Made by a program: the position numbers and the translations under genes
Shown: piece after piece, positions 31,884 through 42,100 of the stretch
Layout: each line of letters begins with the position of its first letter
Numbering within the stretch: the stretch's first letter is position 1
The notes under the pieces: generated by a model
Databases searched by the model: none
What the model saw: only the letters and a program-made list of their open reading frames with translations
Told to the model about the DNA's origin: nothing
Assembly (NCBI RefSeq): GCF_002994005.1
Contig: NZ_POSN01000001.1
Span: 124,001-188,000, forward strand
DNA from: Apilactobacillus quenuiae
GTDB lineage: Bacteria > Bacillota > Bacilli > Lactobacillales > Lactobacillaceae
Direction: 5' to 3'
DNA length: 64,000 bases

Positions 31884-31934
31884 ATTGTAAGTATTTGTTT
31901 TTAATGATATATTTAAAATATTAAATAAAAATAT

Positions 31935-32024
31935 TAGGAGTAGGACTTTATGCGTTAAGTGCTAACGGAACGGAATGTGAACGTTAGACGAAAATTCAAT
32001 TTGCGATATATTGTCCGCATTCGC
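31935..32024 (+). ncRNA. Tetrahydrofolate (THF) riboswitch aptamer
   Basis: GGAG at 31937, then the hallmark GCGTTAAGTG at 31952, a P3 stem CTAACG/CGTTAG, the GGAATGT element, ACGAA and a 3' GTCCGC match the class I THF aptamer in order. GGAC (31943) can pair with GTCC (32013). Folate derivatives bind such RNAs and control transporter genes. It sits directly ahead of folT. Stem pairings were drawn by eye. Confidence 0.85.
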
Positions 32025-32083
32025 CACCAATAGTTATATTATTTACTAACTTTATAATTTGTACGTGGCAGCTCCATTAGGAG
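32023..32083 (+). promoter_or_regulatory. Expression platform between THF aptamer and folT
   Basis: GCCAC (32023) pairs with GTGGC (32065) over a long AT-rich loop. CTCC (32072-32075) can pair with the folT ribosome site GGAG (32080-32083) or with the aptamer's GGAG (31937). This suggests control by masking the ribosome site rather than termination, since no T run follows. Confidence 0.6.
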
Positions 32084-37212: not shown

Positions 37213-37461
37213 TTAAAATTTATGTTTTAAAATATAAGTATTAGCATCTTTTACTTCAACGTTAGTATTCCAAAGCGGTTGAAATTCAATATTTTTCTTA
37301 GAAATATCAACTACAATATTTGCTCCATCATAAGCATTAATACCATTTTCATCTGTACCAATTATTGATACAAATAGGATTTGTTGTTTCCTTTCATCGT
37401 AAAAATGCACCATATTATCCTTATAATAAAAGGTATATCCAGAGATAGTTACTTTATTCAT
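37213..37461 (-). CDS. Small protein of unknown function, paralogue D (fourth of four)
   Basis: 82 residues, no signal peptide or membrane segment. It shares a pattern with its three upstream neighbours: an opening VTISGYTFYYKDN, a middle QQILFV, then NIVVDISKKNIEFQP and a closing TNVEVKDANTYIL. An insert of about 12 residues (GTDENGINAYDG) sets it apart. Alternating hydrophobic residues suggest beta strands. Site GGGGA precedes the ATG. I do not recognise the family. Its last codons come just before a terminator. Confidence 0.7.
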   Translation of the reverse strand: MNKVTISGYTFYYKDNMVHFYDERKQQILFVSIIGTDENGINAYDGANIVVDISKKNIEFQPLWNTNVEVKDANTYILKHKF

Positions 37462-37479
37462 ATTATTTCCCCATGCTAT

Positions 37480-37698
37480 TTAAAAGAATGATTCAATTCG
37501 ATAAACATCATTGCTAATTTCATATATATTAACGCTATTATCTGGATGAAAAGTTAATTTATCATTCACTATATCAATTACTAATTGAATTTCTTCACTT
37601 TGAATAAACGCAATACGATTATTTTGTTGATCAGCAAAACAGTTCATTTCTTCTTTATCATATTGAAAATAAAATTCAGAAATTTTCACTTCTTCCAT
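37480..37698 (-). CDS. Small protein of unknown function, paralogue C (third of four)
   Basis: 72 acidic residues. Shared pattern: VKISEFYFQYDKE, NRIAFI, IQLVIDIVNDKLTFHP and NSVNIYEISNDVYRI. It starts behind AAAGGAG, 23 bases after paralogue B and 18 bases before D. It is predicted cytoplasmic and mostly beta. No known domain is recognised. Confidence 0.7.
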   Translation of the reverse strand: MEEVKISEFYFQYDKEEMNCFADQQNNRIAFIQSEEIQLVIDIVNDKLTFHPDNSVNIYEISNDVYRIESFF

Positions 37699-37721
37699 TA
37701 GTTATCACTCCTTTATCTAAT

Positions 37722-37967
37722 CTATTCTTCTGCCACATAGATTGTGTATTCTAATTCGTTTATTTTATTAAGTTGCACATCGTCTTCTTCCATACTTTCA
37801 GTAGGCGTGATCGACAATTTATTTTGAGCTAATTCTACTTTCATTAACACTTCTGCGTAATCTTCATCTAAGAAAACTAAAATAGTTTTATCTTCGTTGG
37901 TAACTACGGGCGTATTTTCTTCATCGTAGTTAAAGATATATTTACCAATCATAATTTTGTTTTTCAT
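37722..37967 (-). CDS. Small protein of unknown function, paralogue B (second of four)
   Basis: 81 strongly acidic residues. Shared pattern: IMIGKYIFNYDEE, NEDKTILVFLDED, VELAQNKLSITP and VQLNKINELEYTIYV. A few extra residues (TESMEEDD) lie between the third and fourth strands. The site AGAGGA precedes the ATG, 17 bases after paralogue A. Function unknown. Confidence 0.7.
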   Translation of the reverse strand: MKNKIMIGKYIFNYDEENTPVVTNEDKTILVFLDEDYAEVLMKVELAQNKLSITPTESMEEDDVQLNKINELEYTIYVAEE

Positions 37968-37984
37968 ATTATTATCCTCTAGTT

Positions 37985-38200
37985 CTATTCGTTTGCTAGT
38001 ATTTTATAGCTTTTATCTGCTAATTTTTGAATTGTAACACCATAACGTGGTCTTAATAGTAGTTTACCTTCAACAATACTAATATGAATTCTAACCTCTG
38101 TATCAGATGCAAAGAAAGTTAGACTATCTTCATTAATTAAATATCTAGACTGTTTATTATAATAATAAAATTGGAACCCTTTAAAATCTATATTTTTCAT
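37985..38200 (-). CDS. Small protein of unknown function, paralogue A (first of four)
   Basis: 71 residues with the shared pattern IDFKGFQFYYYNK, NEDSLTFFAS, VRIHISIVEGKLLLRP and YGVTIQKLADKSYKIL. It is more basic than B and C. It leads the cluster behind AAGGAG, and an inverted repeat AGAACAT/ATGTTCT lies just upstream. The four genes are probably one transcript. Function unknown. Confidence 0.7.
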   Translation of the reverse strand: MKNIDFKGFQFYYYNKQSRYLINEDSLTFFASDTEVRIHISIVEGKLLLRPRYGVTIQKLADKSYKILANE

Positions 38201-39720: not shown

Positions 39721-41349
39721 TTATCTTATAGATGCATATTTATAGTTCCATTGGGTCCCAGCTGTATTATGGATAACCCCTTTCACTGATGGCTTTTGTA
39801 GATAATAAGTGTCATCTTGGAATAATGGTGATACTCCTTGAGTTATATTTAAACGTTTACTAGCATTAATTAAATCATCCCAACGCTTATTGGCATTATT
39901 AGCATCCCTATTTTCAGCTTTATTTAGCCAATCATTGTATTCAGCATCATGATAATTACCATAGTTATATGCAGTTCCAATTTGGGGAATTTGTAAGAAA
40001 GTAATTGGATCATTAAAATCTCCACCCCATGTATCTAGACTAATATCAAAGTTGCTTTGTTGTTCACGCTGCATTTTTATTTTTGATGGCACACTGGTAA
40101 GACCTACATTCAATCCTGGAAGAGTTGACTCTAGTTGTTCTTTTAAATACTGATTGGCTACATTAGAATTAGCATCATCGTTGCTACTTAATAGTCCTAA
40201 TGAAACATTTTTTTGGGCAATCTCTTTTAGTCCTTTGGCCCACAGTTTCTTAGCTAGCTTTGGATTATAGTCGAGAGTGCCTTTAACATTTTGTTGATTA
40301 GCAAAGTCTACTCCTTTAGGACTATTAGCTAATCCATGAAGTATAAATCCTGTTACTTGACGATCTGATTTTAAGTATAAAACTTTTTTGGATAATAAAG
40401 AGCGATTGATTGATAGCGAAATAGCTTTTCTAATATTTTGATTTTGCAATGCTTTATTTCCATTTTTAAAATTGTATCTTAGATAGGAAATCATTGAATA
40501 TGAATAGTTCTTTAGGTTAGCATCATTTTGATAATTCTTTAATTGATCCGTAGAAAGTGGTGTTATATCAAGTGAACCCTGGTTATATAAGTTTAAACTA
40601 GTAGAAGGATCACTAAACATAGCTATAGTTTATTCGGTTTAATTTAACTACCTTTTTGTCCCAATACTGGTTATTCTTTACATATGACCACTTATCTCCA
40701 ACTCCAGTCCAATTGACAATCTTAAATGGTCCTGAATAAACCATGTATTTAGAATTAGTTCCATATTTATCACCATACTTTTTCACCGCTTTTTCACTTT
40801 GCGGTCCAAACAATGGATATGCCATTAAAGTTTTAAAGTATGCTACCGGTTTATTTAAATGGATCTTAACTGTTTGATTATTAACGGCTTCTATACCTAA
40901 TTTTTGTGGGCTTAATTTACCTTCGTTAATTGCTTTCCCATTTTTTACAGCATTAAATAAATAAGCATATTGGGCTTTAGTGCTAGGTGTAACACTTCGT
41001 TGCCATGAATAAACAAAGTCATTGGCAGTAATCTGACTACCGTCGCTAAATTTAGCTTTTCTAAGTTTAAAGGTCCATGTTTTACCATCCTTACTACTAA
41101 AACCTTTTCAGCCAATCCTGGAGTAATACTTCCTTTTTTGCCTAGTCGATAAAAACTTTCAAATACATTTACAGTTGAACCATACCCCCCAGACTTAGAA
41201 ATATCAATGGTATCTAGTCTACTACTAGCAGCTAAGTTTAACGTTTGTGGTTTATTATCTTTACTGGCGTTATTACTACCACAAGCAGTCAATATTCCCC
41301 CTGTTGCGATTAATAATATGGTTAAAACTATTAATTTATGTTTCTTCAT
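39721..41349 (-). pseudogene. oppA: Oligopeptide-binding lipoprotein (OppA type), broken by two frameshifts
   Basis: The three frames together cover 543 codons, a normal OppA length. The N-terminal piece has a lipoprotein signal with lipobox LTAC and is in frame until GLAEKV near 41,105. There a TTTT run is one base short, and the next frame continues with SSKDGKTWTFK. The second piece ends at INYSYV near 40,622, where an extra T before AGTGATCC shifts the frame, and the third piece continues SDPSTSLNLYNQG to the end. Both breaks are in T runs, so sequencing error or recent decay are both possible. No permease or ATPase genes lie nearby. It follows a Cys-codon attenuator. Confidence 0.85.
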
Positions 41350-41381: not shown

Positions 41382-41442
41382 AAAAAAAGAGTCCCTGCGC
41401 TAGACATAACAAAAAATGTTAGTCCAGTACAGAGACTCTTTT
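41382..41442 (-). terminator. Attenuator terminator in the oppA leader
   Basis: On the minus strand, AAAAGAGTCTCTG pairs with CAGGGACTCTTTT (13 pairs, one G-U), followed by TTT. An inner hairpin ACTAACA/TGTTATGT is also possible. It lies between the leader peptide and the oppA ribosome site, so it is in position to stop transcription before the gene. Confidence 0.8.
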
Positions 41443-41466
41443 ATTTACACTTAAGCCTACACAACA

Positions 41467-41562
41467 TTAAATAGACCTATATGTATTTAAAAGGTTACTA
41501 TACACGTGACTAACATTTTGAATACAACAACATAGCATTTGTTTATTTAATAAGTTATTCAT
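41467..41562 (-). CDS. Leader peptide with three consecutive Cys codons
   Basis: 31 codons: MNNLLNKQMLCCCIQNVSHV and eleven more residues, then TAA. GGAGG lies ten bases before the ATG. Codons 11-13 are TGT TGT TGT at 41524-41532. The RNA just past them (41508-41519) is perfectly complementary over 12 bases to the upstream part of the terminator loop (41413-41424). GGTTACTATAC at the ribosome site (41564-41574) is complementary to 41493-41503. These are the parts expected of ribosome-mediated attenuation responding to cysteinyl-tRNA. Confidence 0.78.
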   Translation of the reverse strand: MNNLLNKQMLCCCIQNVSHVYSNLLNTYRSI

Positions 41563-41600
41563 AGTATAGTAACCTCCTTAATATAAATTTATTATTTTTA

Positions 41601-41629
41601 ATAATACTTTAATATAATTTTAATGTCAA
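41601..41629 (-). promoter_or_regulatory. Promoter of the leader peptide-oppA transcript
   Basis: TTGACA (41624-41629) and TATTAT (41601-41606) on the minus strand with a 17-base spacer. It is a consensus -35 box about 40 bases before the leader ATG. Confidence 0.75.
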
Positions 41630-41710: not shown

Positions 41711-42100
41711 ATGATTTTAGGTTTATATAGTTTAATGAGTAAAAGTAATAGTCAAGGTTCAAATATTGCCACTAATCAACAGCTTATTAATCAGTCTAAT
41801 AATAACTATACTTGGAAAGTTAAATCAACTGCATTCAAAAATTCCGACAATGATGGTGGCAAAAAACATTTATATTTTGACACTAAAAACAATAAGTTAA
41901 TCGAAATTGACGCGGATTATGGGTTCAAAAAGCAAGATGTACTATCTTTATCTTCAGATAAATCAATGGCCTCTAACTATAAATTAGATGGAAAACATAA
42001 GATAAACATAACAACAAATGAAGGCGAGATGATTTTTGAAAATTTATCAAAAAGTAAAAAATCATCATTAACATTAATTTTAGGTAAAAAGTTACAATGA
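41711..42100 (+). CDS. Small membrane-anchored protein of unknown function, start uncertain
   Basis: 129 residues from ATG 41711, opening MILGLYSLMSKSN. The same frame is open back to a TGA at 41663 and encodes YTKIGTILIVLIIIL, the first part of a membrane helix, but no ATG, GTG or TTG lies there. Either a rare start (ATT at 41675) is used, or the N-terminus is damaged. The outer part is polar, with TWKVKSTAFKNSDND and EGEMIFENL. It is the only plus-strand gene between 35.5 and 62.3 kb. No known family is recognised. Confidence 0.5.
   Translation: MILGLYSLMSKSNSQGSNIATNQQLINQSNNNYTWKVKSTAFKNSDNDGGKKHLYFDTKNNKLIEIDADYGFKKQDVLSLSSDKSMASNYKLDGKHKINITTNEGEMIFENLSKSKKSSLTLILGKKLQ

Follow-up and report, generated by a model that had tools for sequence, protein, structure and literature searches.

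A candidate cysteine-responsive leader-peptide attenuator upstream of an oppA-type peptide-binding protein gene in Apilactobacillus quenuiae and related Lactobacillaceae

The DNA analysed here (the window) is a stretch of 64,000 nucleotides from Apilactobacillus quenuiae, in which an oppA-type gene for a family-5 solute-binding protein (39721..41349, minus strand) is preceded by a promoter, a short leader ORF and a terminator. All parts of this element are on the minus strand, and their coordinates run from high to low in the direction of transcription. The promoter (41601..41629) combines a -35 element, TTGACA, at 41629-41624 with a -10 element, TATTAT, at 41606-41601 across a spacer of 17 bases, and agrees with the consensus at 11 of 12 bases. 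The Shine-Dalgarno (SD) sequence AAGGAGG at 41573..41579 is followed by the leader ORF (41467..41562), which runs for 31 codons from ATG at 41562 to TAA at 41467 (MNNLLNKQMLCCCIQNVSHVYSNLLNTYRSI). Codons 11-13 are TGT TGT TGT (41524..41532), a conserved Cys cluster and the proposed site of ribosome stalling. Both the consensus promoter and the 31-codon leader with its three Cys codons had been described in a sequence-only reading of this DNA and were confirmed. A small divergent gene (41711-42100, plus strand) shares the intergenic region with the leader; the window copy has no Pfam match, and a look-alike occupies the same place in a close relative, G007 (L011 4210-4545). Elsewhere in the window, at 37213-38200 (minus strand), four small ORFs of 71-82 aa follow each other in tandem; judged by eye their starts are alike, and the ORFs may be mutual repeats.

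In the window's genome the oppA-type gene is broken into three ORFs (41349-40945, 40825-40613 and 40620-39721), the middle one in a different frame, and the genome search reports internal stops, whereas the promoter, leader and terminator are intact and the long ORFs on either side are open. The switch in this genome therefore probably serves a relic with no working product. Two close relatives, G007 and G012, have intact orthologs of 545 aa whose neighbours look the same by eye, and the G012 gene is 100% identical to that of Apilactobacillus timberlakei HV_12. Both relatives carry this leader too; its CCC run is retained, and the remainder of the peptide differs in part. Two of the three window ORFs match Pfam SBP_bac_5 (PF00496) above the curated cut-off, the first ORF having no match. 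The closest relatives of solved structure are named as peptide or peptide/nickel binders, with PrgZ the third-best PDB match, and family-5 relatives include nickel, haem and glutathione binders. The ORFs beside the gene, compared by eye rather than by family search, differ among ten named loci, and gene neighbourhood was accordingly set aside as a clue to function. The product looks like an orphan peptide-binding lipoprotein; its substrate would most likely be cysteine-yielding peptides (or glutathione).

The leader RNA contains segments that can pair in alternative ways. Segment 1 (41564..41578), in the SD region, is the 5' arm of an outer 1:2 helix of 15 pairs, as indicated by folding, pairing and covariation. 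The 3' arm of this helix, segment 2 (41489..41503), follows the Cys codons, covers codons 20-24 and on, and is complementary to the SD region. In a second role, segment 2 (41488..41519) forms the 5' arm of an antiterminator, 2:3, whose 3' arm, segment 3 (41411..41443, ends approximate), is also the 5' arm and loop of the intrinsic terminator hairpin 3:4 (41385..41442), with a T run behind it that extends to about 41380. The sequence-only reading had noticed smaller pieces of this arrangement. Its 12-base segment after the Cys codons, AAAATGTTAGTC (41519-41508), is indeed the exact complement of GACTAACATTTT (41424-41413) in the terminator 5' arm and loop, and belongs to a 2:3 duplex in which about 28 pairs are possible (-27.6 kcal/mol, z -6.6). 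Its 11-base pairing of the ribosome site with codons 20-23 is also exact, GGTTACTATAC (41574-41564) with GTATAGTAACC (41503-41493), but reaches over codons 20-24. For each of the two pairs of regions, the longest run of exact complementarity is 12 bases, a length reached for neither in any of 1000 dinucleotide shuffles of the spacer. The 209-nt RNA 41590-41382 folds at -71.1 kcal/mol (z -9.0), a value as low in none of 200 shuffles; this z and the 1000 spacer shuffles rule out chance complementarity.

The strong terminator placed before oppA by the same reading was recovered as a hairpin by folding (41442-41385). A simple terminator scan listed no terminator at the window leader, the long, imperfect stem probably having escaped it. 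An Rfam scan of the window at gathering scores returned only RNase P and a THF riboswitch (RF01831, 66.8 bits, 31934-32026, plus strand); the leader had no T-box (RF00230) match, and a known Rfam element was thus discarded as its identity.

A protein search of 397 Lactobacillaceae genomes gave a match at E<=1e-140 in at least 151 of them, from at least 17 of 40 genera (genera are given by working numbers below). Upstream regions were collected from 30 loci and from 100 further places among the matches listed, the largest genera, g16 and g38, being partly sampled. The sequence-only reading had staked itself in advance on conservation of the Cys run in related genomes, and this is what was found: an SD-preceded ORF of 8-60 codons with at least three Cys in six codons lies before the orthologous gene in 106 of the 130 regions, from 13 of the 17 genera sampled, against a mean of 2.8 in dinucleotide shuffles. 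A few of the 106, such as L132, L157 and L158, are less convincing by position. When the same cluster criterion was applied to other amino acids, the next commonest were Val (28/130) and Met (26/130), and no Cys-cluster ORF was present before any of 51 other homologs, whether paralogs or more distant proteins. The remaining 24 regions comprise 11 with a T-box, five with a Cys-rich ORF recognised by eye (L135, which has no good SD, L146, L167, L168 and L184), two cut by a contig end (L124, L154) and six with neither leader nor T-box (L118, L144, L160, L162, L195 and L196, the T-box scan having covered all of these except L160 and L162).

Among named records of at least 49% identity, a Cys-cluster leader precedes the gene in 11 of 12 loci (L016-L026, L049). 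These are A. timberlakei, Lactobacillus kalixensis, L. ultunensis, L. colini, L. corticis, L. gigeriorum, Ca. L. pullistercoris, Ligilactobacillus hayakitensis, Lig. pabuli, Lig. pobuzihii and Lacticaseibacillus zhaodongensis, with the leaders of Lig. pobuzihii and Lc. zhaodongensis read by eye; the twelfth locus, L022, has only 314 bases of upstream sequence. Across 107 leaders the Cys codons are TGT in 344 cases and TGC in 132, with synonymous swaps inside genera, so that Cys is kept while the codons vary. The number and spacing of Cys residues differ between genera, the patterns including CCC, CCSMC, CCxxCC, CCPCC and CCCC at codons 2-5.

A profile of eight leader peptides from the window's genus and g32 was also searched against 16 genomes of the genus. 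Twelve matches at E<=1.2e-11 were obtained, some of them the profile's own rows, one per genome in 12 of the 16 and each just upstream of the gene; 12 weaker rows had E values of 0.001-1. The four genomes without the ortholog had no strong match either (none in G002; weak ones, E 0.06-0.56, in G008, G011 and G015). Further such leaders elsewhere in the genus were ruled out, all 12 strong matches being at the oppA-type gene. In a FastTree phylogeny of 100 rows, for which midpoint rooting alone was used, all 40 Cys-labelled rows fall on one side of a branch (support 100) that holds 46 rows, and the other homologs sit opposite. The other six rows on the Cys side are L107, which has a T-box, L210, L211 and L213, which are second copies of Cys-leader loci L123, L166 and L188, L212, which is the L168 gene, and L022, which is cut short. 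An origin broader than the family was ruled out: the matches at E<=1e-125, in six of 198 genomes drawn from the order (some family members included), all belong to the same family, and in a class sample of 250 genomes a match at E<=1e-112 was seen in the window's own genome only.

Covariation was assessed in an alignment of 13 leaders from g1 and g32, with structures taken from the window and slid versions as controls; since the structures derive from the window, they are favoured over the slid versions in these counts. Pairs changed on both sides numbered 11 of 28 for the 2:3 helix (slid controls 0-6), 9 of 25 for 3:4 (1-4) and 7 of 31 for 1:2 (0-4). The two-sided changes in 1:2 are all in the outer 15 pairs, which are 87% paired, and the inner parts are 52-54% paired with zero two-sided changes. 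The 1:2 counts are lowered because MAFFT mis-registers part of the helix in bulged leaders. By a measure of further pair types, 1:2 was no better than shuffles (433/500) and 2:3 barely so (70/500). In the aligned sequences, then, all three outer helices covary across the 13 related leaders. The compensatory changes that the sequence-only reading had named as a check on its paired segments are therefore present in these leaders, and similar pairings occur in part of the other genera.

Outside this alignment, leaders were folded singly and compared with shuffles. The 1:2 duplex reached p<=5% in 71 of 107 leaders, with poor results in g23 (1/10), g24 (0/5) and g21 (1/6). Automatic detection gave a clear terminator (dG <= -12 and a T tract) in 70 of the 107, and the 2:3 duplex reached p<=5% in 37 of these 70. 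By genus, support for the layout is good in g1, g5, g14 and g16, partial in g23 and g12, and poor in g21 and g24; in g38 and g37, 1:2 is supported and 2:3 is not. The antiterminator statistics are thus clear in the window and g1 and weak in g38, g24, g21 and g37.

A fold model was applied to the same 70 leaders, which include L157, whose terminator is 468 bases off. In the free, finished RNA the 1:2 helix formed in 69 of 70 and the terminator in all 70, as expected of leaders chosen for having one. When a ribosome was placed on the first Cys of the cluster, before the final terminator arm had been made, 2:3 formed with at least eight pairs in 67 of 70; placing it on the last Cys gave 63 of 70. 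The figure of 67 is weak when taken alone because shuffled spacers also pair, averaging 11.8 pairs against an observed median of 19. Compared directly with shuffled spacers in a set of 69 leaders that leaves out L157, the stalled-ribosome fold had p<=5% in 41 by energy (median z -2.2) and in 25 by pair count. We regard this as no more than moderate evidence for the predicted switch.

In some genera a T-box takes the place of the leader. T-box leaders read uncharged tRNA and control a terminator; the tRNA is bound by the RNA directly, without leader translation, which sets them apart from the window element. An Rfam RF00230 scan of 20 loci without an automatic Cys call found a T-box in the gene's direction before 11 orthologs (L183, L107, L110-L117 and L119), ten in g30 and one in g33. 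These two are among the four genera in which no Cys leader was called automatically, and the T-box is present there at 10 of 11 loci and at the single locus, respectively. Two of the 11 scored above the Rfam gathering score and nine below it (63.5 to 84.7 bits). In the ten T-box alignments printed (g30 and g33) the specifier presumably reads AUG (Met), given the position that the codon usually has in a T-box specifier loop. As a counterpoint to a cysteine signal, the T-box that replaces the Cys leader would thus read Met, not Cys. A recurring W/R-rich ORF in g30 was dropped as a candidate leader, its loci having a T-box before the gene. The window's genome itself has 24 T-box matches, eight of them above the cut-off, and one lies directly before another OppA paralog (L239 1501-1752; G000:C4:217643-217894), with a specifier which, on the same assumed anatomy, we take to be AUC (Ile). 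This genome therefore has at least one other peptide-binding protein with an amino-acid sensor of its own.

Taken together, the window element is very probably an attenuator of transcription that works through the ribosome, responds to a lack of cysteine and precedes a peptide-binding protein gene. A translatable ORF lies between promoter and gene, its Cys run is conserved, an intrinsic terminator follows, and in the window and g1 an exclusive antiterminator comes directly after the Cys codons (37 of 70 leaders over all genera). The amino-acid attenuation layout proposed by the sequence-only reading is thereby supported, its pieces forming part of the larger 1:2, 2:3 and 3:4 switch. From these parts, their conservation and their covariation we infer the following course of events. 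When Cys-tRNA is sufficient, or when the leader is free of ribosomes, the SD region (1) would pair with segment 2, downstream of the Cys codons, leaving the terminator 3:4 free to form, and transcription would end before oppA. Under a shortage of Cys-tRNA, the first ribosome would stall on the Cys run, between 1 and 2, and hold them apart; segment 2 would then pair with the terminator 5' arm (2:3), and RNA polymerase would read through.

Four other readings were weighed against this attenuator. The one with most in its favour, though rather unlikely, is also compatible with it, namely that sulfur amino acids are sensed in general, with ribosomes stalling at codons for both Cys and Met, so that in some genera at least a lack of methionine would be answered too. 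The g38 leaders (L197-L209) have Met runs or pairs close before their CCPCC cluster, which points there to a signal shared by Met and Cys; Met other than the initiator makes up 12.7% of the g38 leaders and 6-7% of those of g5, g14 and g16. The T-box before the ortholog in g30 and g33, with its specifier read as AUG, points the same way, but that reading depends on the assumed T-box anatomy. Cys, however, is the residue that the genera share; Met amounts to 3.3% in the window's genus, and the window leader has a single internal Met, at codon 9. Since Met codons are frequent in several leaders, a joint signal is kept as a possibility for them. It is improbable that the Cys-rich nascent chain itself senses a metal, a thiol or redox state and is arrested by its own sequence rather than by a lack of Cys-tRNA. 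Such sensing would be in keeping with CCPCC, CCxxCC and CCCC, which resemble metal-binding motifs, and with the nickel, haem and glutathione binders among the family-5 proteins. Against it, the number and spacing of Cys vary between genera, as tRNA sensing allows, no residue besides Cys is common to the genera by eye, and the leader's place is taken in g30 and g33 by the T-box, a tRNA sensor.

A functional peptide, such as a pheromone imported by the neighbouring binding protein, is a still more remote explanation of the short ORF. It is brought to mind by the rank of PrgZ, which we take to be a pheromone binder, among the PDB matches of the binding protein. The peptides, however, have little but Cys in common across genera and no secretion signal by eye, and the RNA pairings covary within the coding part. 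That the element arose by chance, or is the plain terminator of an upstream transcript, is hardly credible. A promoter scan gave five sites, near the 3.8 of shuffles, the leader promoter being the top-scoring one; yet the Cys cluster before 106 of 130 genes, the 12 profile matches at the gene and the covarying helices all argue against an accident. The cysteine-responsive attenuator is preferred.

Enteric trp, his and ilv leaders are ribosome-mediated amino-acid attenuators. In the E. coli trp leader, pairing also hides the ribosome site of the leader, so the use of this site as strand 1 may have a precedent. In Firmicutes, the Leu-rich ilv-leu leader of S. aureus is described as an attenuator of this kind (PMC5794164). 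With all of these the window element has in common a leader ORF that contains regulatory codons, a choice between antiterminator and terminator structures, and a terminator before the gene. It differs from them in its amino acid, cysteine, in preceding a peptide-binding protein gene rather than a biosynthetic operon, and in using the leader's ribosome site as strand 1.

Cys-rich leaders have been described outside the Firmicutes. In extracts of PMC8632094, uORFC-8-2 is a Cys uORF before cysS in Rhodobacterales, with tandem Cys codons, a terminator and a predicted response to Cys-tRNA, features that the window uORF would share. In the same extracts it differs in belonging to Alphaproteobacteria, in lying before cysS, in its dominant UGC codon and in its two prominent stems, the structures being set against each other by description; the window gene is an SBP_bac_5 gene and not cysS. 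Actinobacterial Cys leader peptides precede cys operons and cbs (PMC1262725, in part) and resemble the window leader as short Cys-run ORFs before sulfur genes; they differ in that their runs are near the stop codon, their genes are biosynthetic, and that part of the source reports no conserved terminator hairpin. Listeria CtaP, as presented in portions of PMC10269559, is annotated as oligopeptide-binding and serves high-affinity cysteine transport, with a predicted SAM riboswitch cited before ctaP. It may offer a lead by analogy, tying an oligopeptide-binding annotation to cysteine uptake, and differs in its regulator and in its linked permease genes (same portions of PMC10269559). The excerpts of PMC2965389, which treat Firmicutes leader peptides for hisS, do not mention oligopeptide or oppA, and those of PMC2494555, on T-boxes, contain no word starting with peptide or opp. 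In the full-text literature searched, which excludes most subscription papers, no description of a Cys leader preceding a lactobacillar opp gene was recognised, in line with the sequence-only reading, which knew of none. The kind of mechanism is known; as far as we found, there is no description of the element, of the gene behind it, of how widely it occurs or of the leader's ribosome site serving as a switching strand.

Many lactobacilli need external cysteine, and it is difficult to tell their numerous Opp-type binding proteins apart by substrate. To our knowledge, little is known of how a lack of cysteine is sensed in lactobacilli. We tentatively consider a wider reading, attractive but with slightly less in its favour than against it, in which the gene forms a sulfur-scavenging module of Lactobacillaceae: an orphan binding protein, probably an importer of peptides that yield Cys or Met, or of glutathione, under the control of tRNA charging by devices that have been swapped. 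These devices would be the Cys leader (Cys and Met in some genera) in most of the genera sampled and the Met T-box in others; both occupy the same place before orthologs of one gene. With the leader SD as strand 1, segment 2 would on this wider reading both shut off translation of the leader and decide termination. A leader peptide and a T-box take each other's place before the same transporter gene, and the conserved Cys leader would single out one orthologous group of binding proteins as tuned to cysteine, which gives both a directly testable switch and a handle for annotation.
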